DNA of 34,315 bases from Microcystis wesenbergii FACHB-1317 (GTDB lineage: Bacteria > Cyanobacteriota > Cyanobacteriia > Cyanobacteriales > Microcystaceae): NCBI RefSeq assembly GCF_014696875.1, contig NZ_JACJQV010000158.1, forward strand, positions 1 to 34,315, given 5' to 3'. The translations under genes and the position numbers were made by a program. The notes under the pieces are model-generated. The model ran no database searches, was not told the DNA's origin, and was given only the letters and a program-made list of their open reading frames with translations. How positions within the stretch are numbered: position 1 is the stretch's first letter; each line of letters opens with the position of its first letter. Positions 1,387-19,287 of the stretch are shown piece after piece.

Positions 1387-1399
1387 GTCTAACATTGAG

Positions 1400-1507
1400 T
1401 TAGGAGATAGGAGTCAGAAGTCAGGAGTCAGGAGTCAGGAGATTATTTTTATTTATTCTTCCCACACTCCATTCCCCCACACCCCACACCCCACACCCCA
1501 CTTCCCC
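1400..1507. repeat. heptamer arrays abutting the pseudouridine synthase start
   Basis: Two low-complexity arrays lie next to each other. GGAGTCA-type heptamers run to about 1441, then CCCCACA-type heptamers run from about 1474 to 1507. The second array ends one base before the start codon at 1509. Such short tandemly repeated heptamers (STRR) are a known feature of cyanobacterial genomes. Confidence 0.75.
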
Positions 1508-1508
1508 A

Positions 1509-2504
1509 ATGCCCAATCAAGGCTGGATTTATCGAGATAAAATTAGCAAAAATCAGGCAGGATTAAGCTTATTAGCCTACTATACGGGCAAATATCCCCA
1601 TTCTAGCCCAGAAGAATGGCTCGATCGCATTTTATCGGCAGCAATTCTAGTCAACGGTCGTCCCGCTGGCCCCGATACAGTCTTAGAAATCGGGCAGCAA
1701 TTGACCTATCAGCGCCCGCCTTGGACAGAACCGGATGTACCGCTCTTTTTTGAGGTACTCTACGAGGATGCCGAGGTGTTAGTGGTGGCGAAACCTTCGG
1801 GATTACCGGTGTTAGCGGGGGGTGGATTTCTCGAACATACTCTTATCCATCTGGTACATCAGCATTATGCCGATGTCACTCCCTATCCAATTCATCGTCT
1901 TGGTCGCGGCACTTCGGGCCTAGTCTTAATGGCGAAATCAAAGCCCGCCAGAGCTAAATTGAGTCAACAGATGCGAGAGGGGAAAATTACCAAAATATAT
2001 CGAGCTTTAGTGGGTCGGGGCGACATACCAGATAATTTTACTATTAATCAAGCGATCGGGAAAATCGCCCATCCCATTTTAGGCTATGTTTACGGTGCGC
2101 TCGCAGATGGGTTATCGGCCCGCAGTGATGGTCGAGTCTTAAAAAAACATCCCGATAGTACCCTATTAGAAGTACAAATTTTTACGGGCAGACCCCATCA
2201 AATTCGCATTCATCTGGCCTTTTTTGGCTATCCTTTAATCGGTGATCCCTTGTATGGTCTGGGGGGATTACCGCGACCGGATGCAGTGCCGGGAGATGGT
2301 GGTTATTATCTCCATGCCAATCAAATCCTTTTCAATCACCCCAGTACAGGGGAAAGAATCTCTATTTGTTGTCCAGCGCCGCCGGAATCAGTTATCAGTT
2401 ATCAGTTATCAGTTATCAGTTCACTGAGAAAACTCCCCACACCCTACACCCCACACCCCACACTCTGCCCCCAGGAAAAACTTTTTGCCGCAGACCCTAT
2501 TTAA
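1509..2504 (+). CDS. RluA-family RNA pseudouridine synthase (HRLG variant)
   Basis: 331 residues. Family members isomerise uridines in rRNA or tRNA. The N-terminus has an S4-like segment (WLDRILSAAILVNGR). The catalytic domain contains LYEDAEVLVVAKPSGLPV, the motif HRLGRGTSGLVLMAKS, then KIYRALV and GRPHQIRIHLAFFGYPLIGDPLYG. In RluA/RluC/RluD the motif is HRLDxxTSG and the Asp is the catalytic residue; here the codon is GGT (Gly). I recall a cyanobacterial and plant subfamily with HRxGRGTSG, so this may be the normal state of the subfamily rather than a defect. About the last 38 residues, from roughly residue 293, are encoded by repeat DNA, not by family sequence. No ribosome-binding site is visible because the ATG follows a heptamer array. 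Confidence 0.85.
   Translation: MPNQGWIYRDKISKNQAGLSLLAYYTGKYPHSSPEEWLDRILSAAILVNGRPAGPDTVLEIGQQLTYQRPPWTEPDVPLFFEVLYEDAEVLVVAKPSGLPVLAGGGFLEHTLIHLVHQHYADVTPYPIHRLGRGTSGLVLMAKSKPARAKLSQQMREGKITKIYRALVGRGDIPDNFTINQAIGKIAHPILGYVYGALADGLSARSDGRVLKKHPDSTLLEVQIFTGRPHQIRIHLAFFGYPLIGDPLYGLGGLPRPDAVPGDGGYYLHANQILFNHPSTGERISICCPAPPESVISYQLSVISSLRKLPTPYTPHPTLCPQEKLFAADPI
2387..2501 (+). repeat. heptamer array plus composite repeat inside the synthase 3' end
   Basis: Four full TTATCAG heptamers lie at 2392-2419. A composite unit follows at about 2434-2501: CCCCACACC-type heptamers, then CTGCCCCCAGG, then AAAAACTTTTTGCCGCA and ACCCTA. The same unit occurs at 33474-33568 (plus) and 15663-15760 (minus). 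Here it is translated as the C-terminal tail of the pseudouridine synthase and supplies its stop codon. Confidence 0.8.
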
Positions 2505-2696
2505 AACCCCCCAAGCTCGATCGCCAGAGTCACTAAAAGACCACTTCGGTAATCACACCCTTAATCCCCCCTAAACGATAGCGAGAAACTAACACAATTC
2601 GATACAATATTGTCAACAAGCATTAAGCGATTTAAACTATCGATCGAAGGTAAAAGTCCCGAAGTTATCGAAATCTAGGGGGAGACAAAAACAAGC

Positions 2697-4859
2697 ATGG
2701 GTAGAGTAGTAGGCATTGATCTAGGGACAACTAACTCCGTCGTCGCCGTGATGGAAGGCGGAAAGCCAGTGGTCATCGCCAACTCAGAGGGCATGAGAAC
2801 CACCCCTTCTGTGGTCGGTTTTAATAAAGATGGGGAGTTAGTGGTCGGTCAAATGGCCCGGCGACAAGGGGTACTCAATCCCCAAAACACCTACTATGCA
2901 GTCAAACGCTACATAGGTCGTCGCTACTCGGAATTAAACCCCGAATCGAAGCGCGTCCCCTACACCATCCGCCGGGATGAGATGGGCAGTATCAAAATTA
3001 AATGCCCCCGTCTGCAAAAAGAATTCGCCCCCGAAGAAATTTCCGCCCTAGTTTTACGCCGATTAGCCGAAGAAGCCAGCCGTTATCTAGGGGAAGAAGT
3101 CACTGGGGCCGTCATCACTGTCCCCGCCTATTTTAATGACTCCCAACGTCAAGCCACCCGGGATGCGGGCCGAATTGCCGGGTTAGAAGTGCTGCGGATT
3201 CTCAACGAACCCACCGCCGCTGCCCTGGCCTACGGTCTCGATGAACAGGAAAGCAAGAAAATCCTCGTTTTTGACCTGGGGGGCGGTACTTTTGATGTTT
3301 CTATTCTGGAAGTGGGTGACGGCGTTTTTGAGGTGAAGGCCACCAGTGGCGACACCCAATTAGGCGGTAATGATTTCGATAAAAGAATCGTCGATTGGTT
3401 AGCCAATCAGTTTTTGGAACAGGAAGGCGTGGAGCTGCGCCAAGACCGGCAAGCCTTACAAAGACTCACAGAAGCGGCAGAAAAAGCCAAAATTGAACTA
3501 TCTGGGGTCAGCGTCACCGATATTAATCTACCCTTTATCATCGCCACGGAAGACGGGCCTAAACACATCGAAACTCGCCTGAGTCGGGCCCAATTTGAGG
3601 AATTATGCGGCGATTTAATCAGTCGTCTCCGTCGTCCTCTCAAACGGGCCCTTTCCGATGCCGGTTTGTCCCCCGTCCAATTAGACGAAGTGGTACTGGT
3701 GGGCGGCGGCACGCGGATGCCGGTGGTGAAGGATTTGGTGCGGAGTTTTATCGATAGGGAACCCAATCAAAATGTTAACCCTGATGAGGTTGTAGCGGTC
3801 GGGGCGGCTATTCAAGCGGGAATTTTGGGCGGCGAGGTCAAAGACGTGCTGCTCCTCGATGTGACCCCTTTATCCTTGGGTTTAGAAACCATCGGCGGTG
3901 TGATGAAAAAGTTAATCCCCCGCAATACCACTATTCCCGTCCGCAGATCTGACCTTTTTTCCACTTCCGAAAATAATCAAACTGTGGTGGAAATCCACGT
4001 TTTGCAGGGGGAAAGGGAAATGGCCAGCGATAATAAATCCCTGGGACGTTTTAAATTAACCGGTATCCCCCCCGCGCCCCGGGGTATTCCCCAAGTGCAG
4101 GTGTCCCTCGATATCGATGCTAACGGTATTCTACAAGTCACCGCTAGGGATAAAATGACCGGACGGGAGCAAAGTGTCACCATTCAAGGCGCTTCTACCC
4201 TCAGCGAAGGGGAAATTAACCGCATGATCGGCGATGCTGCCCGATTTGCCGAAGCAGATCGTACCCGTCGCGAAAAGGTGGATAAACGCAATCGCGCCCG
4301 CTCTCTGGTGGATCAAGCCCAACGACGCTTAAAAGATGTTACTCTCGATTTTGGTAATGAGTTTACCCGTTCCTATCGTCGTCAAATTGAGTCTTTGAGT
4401 ACGGAAATTATCGACGCTTTGGAGAAAAATGATGACCGTCGCCTTGATCGCGCCCAGGCGGACCTACAGGATGTAATCTATGAATTAAATCGCGAGGTAC
4501 GGCTACAATACGACGAGGAAGATGAGGGCTTTTTTAGCGCTATTCGCAAGACTTTTACTGGAGATAAGGAAGATGATCTTCCCTCCGAACCGCGTCGCGA
4601 TCGTTATCGCCAGGATTATCGTCCGGGTACACCGGGTTATCAAAGTGATTATCGACCCAATTATTCGGCTAATCAAGATAGTTATCGCCCCCGCAATCAG
4701 GACAATTACTATAATGGCCGCGATAGCGATTGGTCAAGTCCCCCCCCTTCGGAGGAAAAAAGTTATAACAATAGTAAAAGTAACCGCAGCAGCGGCAATC
4801 GTTCCCGCAATATTCCCCCCCAAAATAACTGGGATGATGAGGATGATGATTGGTTTTAA
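2697..4859 (+). CDS. dnaK3: Hsp70 chaperone DnaK, cyanobacterial DnaK3 type
   Basis: 720 residues, about 80 longer than E. coli DnaK. The ATP-driven chaperone binds exposed hydrophobic segments and works with J-proteins and GrpE. The nucleotide-binding domain starts [20 protein letters not shown] and has the phosphate loops [19 protein letters not shown] and [17 protein letters not shown]. The substrate-binding domain starts around [20 protein letters not shown]. From about residue 610 the protein becomes a disordered tail rich in Asp, Arg, Tyr, Asn and Ser, ending DDEDDDWF. Length, long tail and a dnaJ gene directly downstream match Synechocystis DnaK3, which is reported to be membrane- or polysome-associated. 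A GGGGGAG precedes the ATG by 12 bases. No CIRCE operator was seen upstream; TACAAT at 2603-2608 is a possible -10. Confidence 0.93.
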
Positions 4860-12376: not shown

Positions 12377-12501
12377 TCTTAATCAGAGAAAAGCGCCAAA
12401 TTCGCCTAACCTAATCATAGCTTAGGCGACAAACAGGATCAGCAAGAGATTTCGATTTTTTTACCTTTCTGTATTTTTTTGTTAACAAAACTTAACAATT
12501 A
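12377..12501. other. 3' flank of xisI
   Basis: No gene. One inverted repeat, CGCCTAA (12403-12409) with TTAGGCG (12422-12428), has a 12-base loop and no T-run after it on the plus strand, so it is a poor intrinsic terminator. A T-rich stretch follows. Confidence 0.4.
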
Positions 12502-12672
12502 TCGGCAAAATTTTGCTTGCTTTTATCGGCAGATTTTGAGATAATATTTTTAAAAGATTTTATTTATAATGGGAATCTGTGCGCTTAAAAAAATTTTGCA
12601 AAGATTCCCATTATAAGAAAAGCATAGCGCAAGTCGCCGGCAAAGTCAAGTCCTTCCCCATTAATTATGGGT
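12502..12672. repeat. 171-base hairpin element, copy 1
   Basis: This segment recurs at 12868-13038 with no gaps and 10 differences (161/171 identical). It opens with the palindrome GCAAAATTTTGC (12505-12516). A long hairpin has perfect 14-base arms at 12564-12577 and 12603-12616 around a 25-base loop. A small stem CCCAT/ATGGG closes the segment (12658-12671 area). No open reading frame of note is present. Half of the differences between copies fall in the 25-base loop and none in the 12-base core of the arms. Confidence 0.9.
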
Positions 12673-12867
12673 TGGCTGAAAAAGTAGGGGCGAAGCATTG
12701 GGATAGAAAATCTACGGTTTCAGCGATAGGTTATTGTCCGACTGCTTCGCCCTGACAGGATGCGCTCGCAGATCAAGATGTGGTGAGTCATACCGCACAG
12801 AAAACGGGTTTCTCCGAGAAACCCGTTTTCTACTCATGCAAAAGGCAGATTTAGTATCAGACCAAAT
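12673..12867. repeat. spacer between the 171-base copies, with two further palindromes
   Basis: GGGCGAAGCA (12688-12697) pairs with TGCTTCGCCC (12743-12752) across 45 bases. A near-continuous 31-base palindrome lies at 12800-12830, with arms 12800-12814 and 12816-12830 (GAAAACGGGTTTCTC and its complement). Both look like dispersed palindromic repeats rather than parts of a gene. Confidence 0.75.
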
Positions 12868-13038
12868 TCGGCAAAATTTTGCTTGCTTTTATCGGCAGAT
12901 TTTGGGATAATATTTTTAAAAGATTTTATTCATAATGGGAATCTATGCGTCTAAAAAAATTTTGCACGGATTCCCATTATAAGAAAAGCATAGCGCAAGT
13001 CGCCAGCAAAGTCAAGTCCTTTCCCATTACTTATGGGT
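12868..13038. repeat. 171-base hairpin element, copy 2
   Basis: Second copy, offset by exactly 366 bases from the first. The long hairpin arms are at 12932-12943 and 12969-12980 (12 bases, perfect). The GCAAAATTTTGC palindrome is at 12871-12882 and the closing CCCAT/ATGGG stem near 13023-13037. The outer two base pairs of the copy 1 stem are weakened here by one T-to-C change. Confidence 0.9.
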
Positions 13039-15831: not shown

Positions 15832-18800
15832 TTAAAAAGAATACACGGCTGTTTTGATATTTTGGTAGTTATCATCTAGATCTGATTCTAGGAGAATAAT
15901 CGCAGTAATTCTTCTAGTCATCTCGCTGACTTCCTGCACTTCTGCGATAGTTAATCCCCGTCCTAATAATTTTTCCTCGCGATAACTTAGCCATTTTTTA
16001 ATGACTTGATAACCCCCGATAGTATATTCCCAAACCCGGGCCGGTATATTTTGCCAATAGGCTCGATCGTTGAGATAAATATCATAGGTTTTGGTTCCTA
16101 ATAATTTTCGCATTTCTGGGCTAATTACGCTCATTTCTGTGGTTGTATATTGTCTGGCGATCGCTTTTCCTTTACCCGGCATTGTCACGCCATTTTTCCC
16201 CCCGTGTCCCCAACCAACGTTAATAATTAAATCCCCCTTATCTGGGTTTAAATTTCCCCCATCAGTGCAGGAAATCAAGGCGATTTTTTGCAGTGCAGGG
16301 GTCGGTTTTTTGGTGACTCCTATAACGGGGTTTTCTGTGTCTAAAAGAGAGGCGATCGCTTGTCCTAGTTCGGCAGATTTAATTAATAATTCTTGGCTAT
16401 TGGGAAGGGGAATTCTTGGGAAGTCTTGACGAATACCGTCGGCATTTTCCCGAAGATATAAGGGAGAGTACCCAATCGCTAACGAGTGCAGCCAAATTAA
16501 GGAAGCATTCTCGATATTTTCATCAAGATTATTAATACCCAGTTGATTTAAGTATTGACGAGATTTTTCCGAGAGATTAGCTTTTATTGAAGGACTATTA
16601 AAGTTACCAGAATCGAATAATTTTCCTTGAGTATTATCTTCTGTATTCACCTTCTCTGAATTTTGACGTAATCGTATAGGAAAGTGATGAGATTGTCCTC
16701 GAATTACATGAAAGTCTGTTAAAAACTTGGTAAAATAAATAGGAACTCCTTCCGGTTCAGTTACACCAGCAGGACGACTGACTAAAAAGGAATTACCTTG
16801 AAATTGATGAATAAATAGCGAAGGTCTTGCTCGGTTCCATAAAGGTGTAATTTGAGTATAATAACACCATTTAACCTCATAGGGTCTGAGCAGATAAGGT
16901 AACAGCATTTGAGGATTAAATTTTTCGCGTAACTTTAAGACTTTATCTCTTGCTTTTTTGGCATTAAATCCAGCCACATCTTTAGTTAAACCTGTATTAA
17001 GTGATGCTAATTCTTCCCATGAAACATTTTGATTAAAGTATTTACTTATTCTTTCCGAAAGAATAGTTTTATCACTATCAATAAAACTATAGCCTCGATT
17101 CTCTTTATAACCTGTAATTGGAGCTTCATCAGATAAATCTGTTAACTTTGGCCATGCTAAATAGTGAGAGGAAACATCGGAGGGACGGAAAGAATAACGA
17201 TTAGATAGTTCTGGGTTAGAGACTTGATAAAAAGCATCAAAATCTTGATTATTTAAACTATCTAATAACTGTTCTCGTTTAGCCACTCCCCAGAAATGGC
17301 GAAAATAGACATCAACATTTTTATTCCTTACTTCCTTTCTTACCATTAATCCGATAGTTGTCCCGACTCGAATTCCTTCCTTATTGTATTGAGTAGAAAA
17401 AACACTAGGATCTGGATTACCTTCGGGGGTTAACTTTCCCGTTTCGCGACTATCACCATTGAGACAATCAAACCAAAGACGATCAAATTCTTGTAAAAAT
17501 CTTTGCCGCATCACCACAAAAGAAGGATCACCGAGATAGGAAAAATTAGAAATATAACAAACAACCCCTTTGCCAGTATTTTCTGAAATACATCTTTCCG
17601 CTAAACGAAAAAAGCGCACATATAACTCATCTAAATTAAACTTTTTAATCCCCCAATCGGAGATTAAACCCTGTTTATACACTTCTACTAAACCTGCTTC
17701 TTCTGCGGGACTGGTTCCAGCAAAAGCATTGTAGGGAGGATTACCGAGAATAACTAAAATCGGTTTACCGCGCTTAACTTCATCAGCTGCCTCTCGTTCC
17801 TTATTTAACTCCGGAAAACTTAATTGTAGCTGTTGAATTTTCTGTTTACTTTCCTCATCGGGGGGTTGCCAACCGGTTAAAGCATTAGTCAGATAAATCC
17901 CGACTCGTTCACTATCTTCTATTAAAGGTACACCCAAACTTTGCAGGAATAAACCTAATTGTAGATGAGCGACGACAAAAGGAGCGGTTAAAATCTCGAA
18001 ACCGAAAATTCTTTCTATGGCTGCCTTTTTCACCAAAGCCATGGCTAAAGCACCCGCGCCATTTTCCTGTAAAGTATCGGTAATATAGCGCAAAACCTCG
18101 ACTAAATAAGCACCAGTGCCACAGCAAGGATCGAGAATATAAACATCGGGATTAGCTAAACCGTCCTCAATATTTAATTCTTCTCGTAAAACTCGATCGA
18201 CTCGCGCTACCATATAGCGAACAATTTCCGGAGGAGTGTACCAAACTCCCAATTCTTTGCGTAAATCAGGATCAAAAGCTTGCAGAAATGGTTCATAGAA
18301 ATACTGTACCGCTTGTCCCTCATCGAATTGACGAAAAAATTCCTCTCGTCGCACTCGATTTAAAGCTGCACCAGTCCAATTCAAGACTTCTACTAATCCC
18401 AAAGATTTTAACTTACTCGGTGCAGCGATCTGCTCAAATAGGATCGCTAACATGGGAACATGGAGATGGTGGGCTGCGGATTTCCAATCGAACTTATCCT
18501 CGCGATTGAGGTTTTCCTTGTGCCATAATACCCAAGCGGAAAATAAACCATAAAAGAGGGTTTGCACGAGGGTAGAACGAAAAAATTTATTTCCCTGTTC
18601 CTGTTCAAATTTGATACCTAGGGCATTTTCTAAAGCTTGACGAATATTGGCCAGAGCGGGAAGATCGGAATGATGTTCTAAGCGTGCTTTTGCGTCCCGC
18701 GCATAGGAAGCAAGAAACCAAGCAACATCGGCTGGTGAGGTGATAGGAGCCGCCTGTAAAAGCACTCTCTTTAGGTATTCTAAGAGGCTATCACCCTGTT

Positions 18801-19287
18801 CGGCGGCGAATTTGGATGGATTTGAGGTTTTTAGCCAAAACTCGGCTTCTGAGGGGGCTAAACTATAGGCTTCTAATTCTACCGGTTGACCTTGGCTATT
18901 GCGGCCGATGAGCAGAAAATCGCGATAATTGGTGACTAATACTTGACCGTATTTTTGCCAGTATTTTTGTACTTGCTCGCTGGCGGCGATTTTTTTGACA
19001 TCTTCTTTGGTTCCCTTAATCTCGATCGCGCCTCTTTCGGGAAAAATCGCCGTAAAAGGTTCTAATTCTTGATTTTTGGGGAATTGATCGACGTTAAAAA
19101 GTCCCCCGTCCGGCAATCCCGCACCCTGATTTCTGAGGTTGATAATGCAGCGCACTCGCAGTTTTAGGGTTTTACCGATTTCGTTAAGGAGAGTTTCGAG
19201 AGTGCCGTAGTAGGAGGTTTCTTTTACCGCTGCTTGGGAGGAGTGGATTTCGTGCAGGTTGCGAAAATAATTGACGAGGGGATTCAT
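15832..19287 (-). CDS. single-chain restriction-modification enzyme (type IIG / ISP-like, no helicase)
   Basis: 1151 residues. One polypeptide appears to carry nuclease, N6-adenine methyltransferase and DNA-recognition functions. Residues 1-130 look like a PD-(D/E)XK nuclease: GLPDGGLFN with Asp60, then GAIEIKG with Glu89-x-Lys91. The methyltransferase region has GVWYTPPEIVRYMV (347-360), the SAM loop DPCCGTGAYLVEVL (386-399) and the catalytic NPPY (516-519). The C-terminal ~450 residues resemble the type ISP specificity domain, including VWEYTIGGYQVIKKWLSYRE near the end. No DEAD-box helicase motifs lie between nuclease and methylase, unlike LlaGI-type ISP enzymes. It should act alone on foreign DNA; all motifs look intact. 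Confidence 0.88.
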   Translation of the reverse strand: MNPLVNYFRNLHEIHSSQAAVKETSYYGTLETLLNEIGKTLKLRVRCIINLRNQGAGLPDGGLFNVDQFPKNQELEPFTAIFPERGAIEIKGTKEDVKKIAASEQVQKYWQKYGQVLVTNYRDFLLIGRNSQGQPVELEAYSLAPSEAEFWLKTSNPSKFAAEQGDSLLEYLKRVLLQAAPITSPADVAWFLASYARDAKARLEHHSDLPALANIRQALENALGIKFEQEQGNKFFRSTLVQTLFYGLFSAWVLWHKENLNREDKFDWKSAAHHLHVPMLAILFEQIAAPSKLKSLGLVEVLNWTGAALNRVRREEFFRQFDEGQAVQYFYEPFLQAFDPDLRKELGVWYTPPEIVRYMVARVDRVLREELNIEDGLANPDVYILDPCCGTGAYLVEVLRYITDTLQENGAGALAMALVKKAAIERIFGFEILTAPFVVAHLQLGLFLQSLGVPLIEDSERVGIYLTNALTGWQPPDEESKQKIQQLQLSFPELNKEREAADEVKRGKPILVILGNPPYNAFAGTSPAEEAGLVEVYKQGLISDWGIKKFNLDELYVRFFRLAERCISENTGKGVVCYISNFSYLGDPSFVVMRQRFLQEFDRLWFDCLNGDSRETGKLTPEGNPDPSVFSTQYNKEGIRVGTTIGLMVRKEVRNKNVDVYFRHFWGVAKREQLLDSLNNQDFDAFYQVSNPELSNRYSFRPSDVSSHYLAWPKLTDLSDEAPITGYKENRGYSFIDSDKTILSERISKYFNQNVSWEELASLNTGLTKDVAGFNAKKARDKVLKLREKFNPQMLLPYLLRPYEVKWCYYTQITPLWNRARPSLFIHQFQGNSFLVSRPAGVTEPEGVPIYFTKFLTDFHVIRGQSHHFPIRLRQNSEKVNTEDNTQGKLFDSGNFNSPSIKANLSEKSRQYLNQLGINNLDENIENASLIWLHSLAIGYSPLYLRENADGIRQDFPRIPLPNSQELLIKSAELGQAIASLLDTENPVIGVTKKPTPALQKIALISCTDGGNLNPDKGDLIINVGWGHGGKNGVTMPGKGKAIARQYTTTEMSVISPEMRKLLGTKTYDIYLNDRAYWQNIPARVWEYTIGGYQVIKKWLSYREEKLLGRGLTIAEVQEVSEMTRRITAIILLESDLDDNYQNIKTAVYSF

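Follow-up and report, generated by a model that had tools for sequence, protein, structure and literature searches.

Convergent promoters that give rise to antisense RNAs are a known kind of genetic arrangement. In the SdsR/RyeA pair of Escherichia coli (PMC6610125), facing promoters produce overlapping non-coding RNAs, and head-on promoters that are expected to interfere with each other are described in work on transcriptional interference (PMC6593788). At the PR' promoter of phage lambda, -10-like sequences in the initial transcribed region mediate sigma-dependent pausing (PMC6606751). MITEs and REP/BIME repeats (PMC10969869, PMC3733652) are short, intergenic, palindromic and present in many copies.

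Features of these systems are seen or predicted in a DNA element of cyanobacteria, two copies of which lie in a contig of Microcystis wesenbergii FACHB-1317 that was analysed over its whole length of 34,315 nucleotides (the window). In its anatomy, as read from the sequence, two putative sigma70-type promoters face each other around inverted half-sites, ATAATGGRA(ATMT), which enclose a centre of free sequence; the predicted -10 boxes lie outside the half-sites, whose outer ends are 47-50 bp apart. We propose that each of the twin copies is a compact convergent-promoter unit from which short, mutually antisense RNAs are predicted to arise, and we put the probability of this reading at roughly 60%.

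The element differs from each of the described systems. SdsR/RyeA is a single-locus pair, whereas the element forms a multi-copy family in which, across an order, the motif is conserved and the distance of 47-50 bp nearly fixed; the convergent promoters of the interference literature are, as far as could be seen, individual or engineered pairs, whereas the element is a dispersed family of fixed geometry. The element shares with PR' a -10-like sequence in the (here predicted) initial transcribed region, but has two facing putative promoters and no known Q-like partner, and any pausing at it would be conjectural. Unlike MITEs and REP/BIME repeats, it occupies mostly conserved loci, is accompanied by flanking DNA in the insert at one locus, and has putative promoters on two sides. 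The cyanobacterial RNA SyR1 is also named PsrR1. With Yfr2 it belongs to the intergenic RNA genes of cyanobacteria (PMC2662882), a class that the element would join through its predicted RNA, and SyR1 adjoins a fabF gene, as one copy of the element stands beside a ketoacyl synthase gene. That copy, however, is absent from four of nine readable genomes, and the element loci match no Rfam family, which sets them apart from Yfr2 and SyR1 by distribution and Rfam search. Literature searches that included the letters of the motif, with subscription papers mostly outside their coverage, retrieved no recognisable description of the element. Thus, although the arrangement is of a known kind, a family dispersed over an order, its motif conserved and its spacing nearly fixed, appears, as far as these searches show, to be undescribed.

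The twin elements and their family in Microcystis

The original prediction, made from the letters of the window, described two gap-free 171-base copies, 366 bases apart and identical at 161 positions, and a recount bears this out. It also placed five of the ten differences in the 25-base hairpin loop and none in the 12-base core of the arms, and a position count agrees (differences, in copy-1 coordinates, at 12539, 12565, 12579, 12584, 12585, 12601, 12602, 12639, 12656 and 12664). The palindrome and the small terminal stem that it mentioned are present as well (Table 1); the inward-pointing pair of putative promoters that flanks the hairpin was beyond its reach. The palindrome GCAAAATTTTGC is largely conserved across the genus copies and is a possible operator. 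A coding reading, based on a 15-codon frame within the hairpin of copy 1, was rejected, the frame not being kept in other copies as judged by eye.

Table 1. Coordinates of the twin elements and their parts in the window
Feature	Position	Strand	Sequence, support or remark
Element copy 1	12502..12672		171-bp unit; family model R1 matches 12492-12654
Element copy 2	12868..13038		161/171 identical; R1 matches 12862-13021
Copy 1 plus promoter (predicted)	12517..12545	+	TTGCTT (12517-12522), 17 bp, GATAAT (12540-12545); TG one base upstream
Copy 1 minus promoter (predicted)	12621..12649	-	TTGACT (12649-12644), 17 bp, TATGCT (12626-12621)
Copy 1 left half-site ATAATGGGAATC	12566..12577	+	from sequence; 12-bp arm
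Copy 1 centre between half-sites	12578..12602		sequence free, length near-fixed
Copy 1 right half-site ATAATGGGAATC	12603..12614	-	12-bp arm; outer span 12566-12614 = 49 bp
Copy 2 plus promoter (predicted)	12883..12911	+	TTGCTT-17-GATAAT, from sequence; p 0.085 vs shuffles
Copy 2 minus promoter (predicted)	12987..13015	-	TTGACT-17-TATGCT; generic scan; p 0.002; R2 E 1.6e-11
Copy 2 left half-site	12932..12943	+	from sequence
Copy 2 right half-site	12969..12980	-	outer span 12932-12980 = 49 bp
Palindrome GCAAAATTTTGC	12505..12516 (copy 1), 12871-12882 (copy 2)		just upstream of plus -35
Small end stem CCCATTAATTATGGG	12658..12672		in one subfamily; no general part of the element

Two further features of the window lie outside the element: an inverted repeat between the twins (12799-12831), whose perfect 16-bp arms enclose a loop of 1 nt, and a gene at 15832-19287 (minus strand) with N6 methylase and Type ISP C-terminal specificity domains, a candidate restriction-modification enzyme.

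The original prediction had suggested a search of the unit against Microcystis and other cyanobacteria, and this uncovered a genus-wide family, with the half-site pair extending over the order. A DNA search gave matches in all 12 Microcystis genomes (4-13 per genome, partial ones included), and a profile search with a threshold of 60 bits, weaker matches being left uncounted, yielded 76 distinct copies; we read them as three subfamilies. Leaving aside two copies from one locus (L068), 74 served as references, 49 of which were aligned. The copies are mostly situated at a few conserved intergenic loci, as judged from sequence: rather than showing dispersed, non-syntenic placement, the upstream flanks of 75 copies form five clusters (26, 19, 14, 8 and 5) and three single copies, and copies at one locus are mostly close neighbours in sequence. 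Six types of locus were recognised, in which comB, methyltransferase and acyl reductase are our own gene readings: (i) comB, which may or may not be accompanied by xisHI, the opposite side being occupied in several genomes by tRNA-Met and an M23 peptidase gene, (ii) a methyltransferase-like gene adjoining the same tRNA-Met and M23 peptidase, (iii) ketoacyl synthase adjoining dnaG, (iv) a DUF58 gene adjoining an acyl-reductase-like gene, (v) cyanate lyase adjoining a symporter, and (vi) pseudouridine synthase. In the 49 aligned copies the 19-column centre has a mean pairwise identity of 0.48, compared with 0.75-1.0 for the remaining segments, and the outer span of the half-sites is 47-49 bp in all of them.

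The genus also contains a distant two-sided subfamily (L074:2718-3110, L109, L111, L116-L122, L128), whose members are paired at a distance of about 270 bp in three genomes and are single matches at the remaining loci read. Upstream of dnaG lies a repeat of roughly 80 bp (L041:2874-2953), which has many more matches across the genus genomes.

Evidence for the putative promoters and distribution of the half-site pair

The spacers of the predicted promoters on both strands are gap-free in the 49 aligned genus copies, all of which have TTGACT as the minus -35. The minus -10 reads TATGCT in 20 copies, TATGAT in 15, TATACT in eight, TATAAT in three, TACGAT in two and TACATT in one; its first T, second A and last T are thus invariant while the inner letters vary, which is the pattern expected of a -10 box. 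The minus promoter of copy 1 exceeds shuffled sequences (p 0.005), and both minus promoters of the twins are listed by a generic promoter scan of the window (four promoter-like sites, 2.4 expected). The plus promoters of the twins are absent from that list and score no better than shuffles (6.7, p 0.145 in copy 1; for copy 2 see Table 1). Moreover, the plus -10 ends 20 nt before the half-site, so that the plus start of the twins would fall about 13 bp outside the motif; together with the weakness of this promoter, this counts against a uniform scheme. In most copies no convincing terminator was seen by eye.

The motif also occurs behind single promoter-like sequences. In four genus genomes ATAATGGGAATC is found 23, 28, 24 and 17 times, against 1, 2, 1 and 1 for the reversed control. 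The 52 distinct contexts fetched comprise, by script, eight two-sided ones, 43 with TTGAC upstream (at least two of which are also two-sided) and one with neither. In 33 of 40 one-sided copies TTGAC is followed after 17 or 18 nt by TAnnnT and then, 6 or 7 nt later, by the motif; the remaining seven were not accepted by the script, their box being GATACT or GATAAT or their TTGAC doubled. A model built solely from these 40 copies (R2) recovers both twins on the minus strand (copy 1 at E 7.4e-9; copy 2 in Table 1) and matches their plus halves at E 4.1e-5 and 9.2e-4. It has 21-49 matches in each of the 12 genus genomes, a count that may include two-sided copies, and has matches in six of 38 other genomes of the family.

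One-sided copies (L159-L172, L209-L213; TTGAC-N17/18-TAnnnT, then ATAATGGGAATCCGTG) are often clustered. Some stand before methyltransferase or type IIG restriction genes (L159, L166, L172), others before a DUF29 gene and before small gene pairs that we read as toxin-antitoxin-like. At L166 one-sided copies surround a gene for a Y1 (IS200-like) transposase (1485-2063, minus strand), next to which are AGTAGGGATAATTCATGAATTATCCCTAC palindromes and tandem repeats of 14 bp (1391-3046); the arrangement resembles a REP/RAYT locus.

Beyond Microcystis, the two-sided model R1 is matched in 61 of the 243 genomes that represent the order, and most of the 20 regions fetched have the same plan, as judged by eye and not by individual scores. 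Among 12 members from other genera found with R1, inward promoters beat shuffles (p 0.05) in seven on the plus and eight on the minus strand, a result biased by the fact that R1 contains the promoters; the tests that follow are based on promoter-free patterns and are unbiased in this respect. To keep clear of model bias, a search was limited to the half-site pair: ATAATGGRA, a free gap of 15-44 and the inverted motif (33-62 bp overall allowed). In the order, 98 of the 243 genomes and 56 of the 109 genera contain the pair; the column sums are 279 matches for the pattern and 14 for its reversed control. Although the pattern permits a wide range, the span is 47-50 bp in 73 of the 75 places listed, all of them outside Microcystis (47 bp in three, 48 in 19, 49 in 33 and 50 in 18; one place each has 36 and 52 bp, and one of the 50-bp places resembles an unrelated hairpin). 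In a phylum-wide draw, whose denominators are our own row counts, the pair was found in 29 of 83 genomes of the order, in none of 56 from other orders of the class and in none of 153 from other classes of the phylum. By this pattern, therefore, it is restricted to one cyanobacterial order in the genomes drawn. One genome (G389) has three 54-bp matches in which a repeated sequence fits the ends of the pattern; it looks like an unrelated repeat family.

The flanks of the pair were examined at 29 of 30 loci fetched by the promoter-free pattern, one 36-bp match being dropped, with E. coli values as promoter position weights. In these 58 flanks (29 genomes), inward TTG-N-TAnnnT pairs peak at a spacing of 17 (21 pairs, against 2-10 at each other spacing), whereas the outward control has a single pair at this spacing, and in 16 of the 21 the -10 starts 9-13 nt before the motif. 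The top-scoring promoter of each flank reaches 8.0, compared with 5.9 in shuffles preserving single-letter composition only, and 31% of flanks exceed the shuffled 95th percentile. In ten of the 58 the half-site itself is the best-scoring -10, so that in some copies the motif may serve as a -10 box instead of marking the start.

A similar comparison was made with a narrower promoter-free pattern (half-site pair with a centre of 29-32) in named genomes, for which 80 of 117 matching records were listed. Sorting by title gave 44 cyanobacterial records, including one of Acaryochloris (L353) that by eye has no promoters, and 36 others; after removal of matches too near the end of a locus, these provided 45 and 34 elements, respectively. 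The cyanobacterial elements average 8.44 bits inward and 1.85 outward, the others 1.0 and 1.36 (inward scores, Mann-Whitney p 2e-20). Inward promoters above 5 bits are found on both sides in 34 of 45 cyanobacterial elements and in none of the 34 others, 11 of the 45 lacking one on at least one side; the plus promoters of the twins themselves are weak. Half of the non-cyanobacterial matches (17/34), but only one of the 45 cyanobacterial ones, lie in open frames, and the former, being also devoid of promoters, are treated as chance. Among the 80 records listed are those of Microcystis, Trichodesmium, Nostoc, Microcoleus and Arthrospira. The narrow pattern also matches 12 viral contigs. In another genus (L251) at least six copies, four of which were read, form an array, most of them about 395 bp apart.

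Possible alternatives: hairpin, operator, mobile repeat or XisHI site

The hairpin could itself be the working part: a structured small RNA, of which one strand would be the product while the second promoter is incidental. Measured against dinucleotide shuffles, both twins fold well (z -4.4 and -4.0), as does the subgroup designated 1 (19 copies; mean z -4.6 on the plus and -5.4 on the minus strand), and several other genera have long perfect arms. However, two copies from other subfamilies gave z values of +1.1 and -0.6, and subgroups 2 and 3 (30 copies) fold weakly (mean z -1.3 to -1.9). The original prediction had taken the distribution of the twin differences as a hint of selection on structure, which is unsupported within the genus: over 49 copies covariation is no higher than in shuffles (standard pairs 72.8% vs 74.2%; score 0.038 vs 0.043), and while paired cells far exceed those of slid versions (31-43%), conserved arms alone would give such an excess. 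Arm matches within genus elements are fewer than between elements (44 copies, p 0.99).

Across genera a modest symmetry of the arms is visible. Matches within elements exceed those between elements in 35 elements (5.17 vs 4.47 of 10, p 0.0014), with one element per genus or genome (20 elements; 5.4 vs 4.73, p 0.023), in 64 of the 75 places listed for the order (4.14 vs 3.74 of 8, p 0.011) and in a reduced set of these (33 elements; 4.09 vs 3.45, p 0.012). The half-site finder caught 35 of 38 order-level copies, of which at least two (L091, L099) were anchored at a wrong span, and 44 of 49 copies from the genus; left out of the 75 were the 36- and 52-bp places, the dissimilar hairpin and eight further same-genome copies, some identical and some merely similar. 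This symmetry (p 0.001-0.02) leaves room for a selected hairpin or dyad. The window and 23 loci contain no Rfam 15 family at gathering score besides tRNA and SRP RNA, and a permissive scan gave below-cut-off matches only, mostly microRNA-like hairpins. With inward promoters also predicted on both sides of 34 of the 45 cyanobacterial matches, we regard a structured RNA as an unlikely explanation. Any constraint on the fold is secondary at most, and two facing copies of one motif account for much of the palindrome. The non-coding family envisaged in the original prediction is supported as an element, with a predicted RNA.

A DNA operator is another candidate, in which a dimeric or tetrameric protein would bind the inverted ATAATGGRA half-sites at a fixed distance and control the flanking promoters. 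It would fit a motif of about 13 bases, a free centre and a near-fixed spacing, and is consistent with the position of the motif 6-7 nt after the -10 in 33 of the 40 one-sided genus promoters, those with callable boxes. Nevertheless, spans of 47, 48, 49 and 50 bp all occur, a range corresponding to about 100 degrees of helical turn that a pair of rigid proteins would probably not accommodate easily, and we consider an operator of this type improbable.

Spread by a transposase, as a palindromic MITE or REP-type mobile repeat, would explain why the element is multi-copy and palindromic overall, with minus-strand self matches, why tandem copies exist, and why the one-sided copies at L166 have a Y1 transposase gene among them. 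It would also fit the place between ketoacyl synthase and dnaG, which is filled in five genomes, empty in four and unreadable in three, and where in two of the five filled genomes 47 bp of the end of the synthase gene are repeated on the far side of the insert. Yet the filled segment carries DNA beyond the element, and no short duplication was seen abutting the element (one filled/empty locus, by eye). We conclude from such sequence comparisons that copies can move by recombination. Taking into account also that the copies lie mostly at a few orthologous loci in the 12 genomes, that centre sequences are often diverse within one genome and that a blastn search with the 171-bp unit drew a blank among phage and plasmid records, the palindromic MITE of the original prediction is unsupported as stated, and we think a transposase-spread repeat very unlikely.

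That the twins are sites acted on by the neighbouring XisH/XisI pair, as was also proposed on account of the xisI gene ending 125 bp before copy 1, is highly improbable given the distribution of both: of 100 XisI matches in the 12 genus genomes (4-15 per genome) seven lie within 5 kb of a copy, six of them at what we read as one orthologous locus and the seventh about 2.3 kb from another copy, so that co-location does not extend beyond one locus. The best-scoring XisI type stands at the locus of the window in six of the 12 genomes, while in five genomes the element lies right beside comB (three) or within about 2 kb of it (two) with no xisHI match in the stretch examined. The xisHI neighbourhood looks incidental.

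How a convergent-promoter unit may work

In the convergent-promoter reading, RNA polymerase would start from both sides and produce two short overlapping antisense RNAs, the minus one beginning at about AUAAUGGGAAUC. Because the same motif would lie near each start, both RNAs would be near-palindromic, and the hairpin would be largely a by-product of one start motif facing itself.

More speculatively, the fixed distance may let two polymerases load so that their leading edges meet, while the motif, composed of the -10-like ATAAT and GGRA, may hold sigma and pause them; the unit would then be self-limiting and its short RNAs could act as a regulatory sense/antisense pair. This part of the proposal is based on the fixed spacing and on the occurrence of -10-like ATAAT with GGRA in the initial transcribed region, where ATAATGGRA falls by sequence if the starts are as predicted from the boxes alone. 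GGGA following a -10 box is bound by sigma region 1.2. Tentatively, the geometry itself may be the working part: polymerases launched head-on from motifs 47-50 bp apart would each stand in the path of the other, and the element could act as a transcription brake, a switch or a source of paired RNAs. The centre would be free to vary under this geometry because the two RNAs are always mutually complementary.

If the convergent-promoter reading is right, annotation has passed over a non-coding element that is common in a major order of cyanobacteria. It would provide many natural convergent pairs of fixed geometry for measuring polymerase collision, promoter-proximal pausing and antisense RNA, and it would offer a simple account of how palindromic, loop-variable repeats may be conserved without selection on RNA fold.
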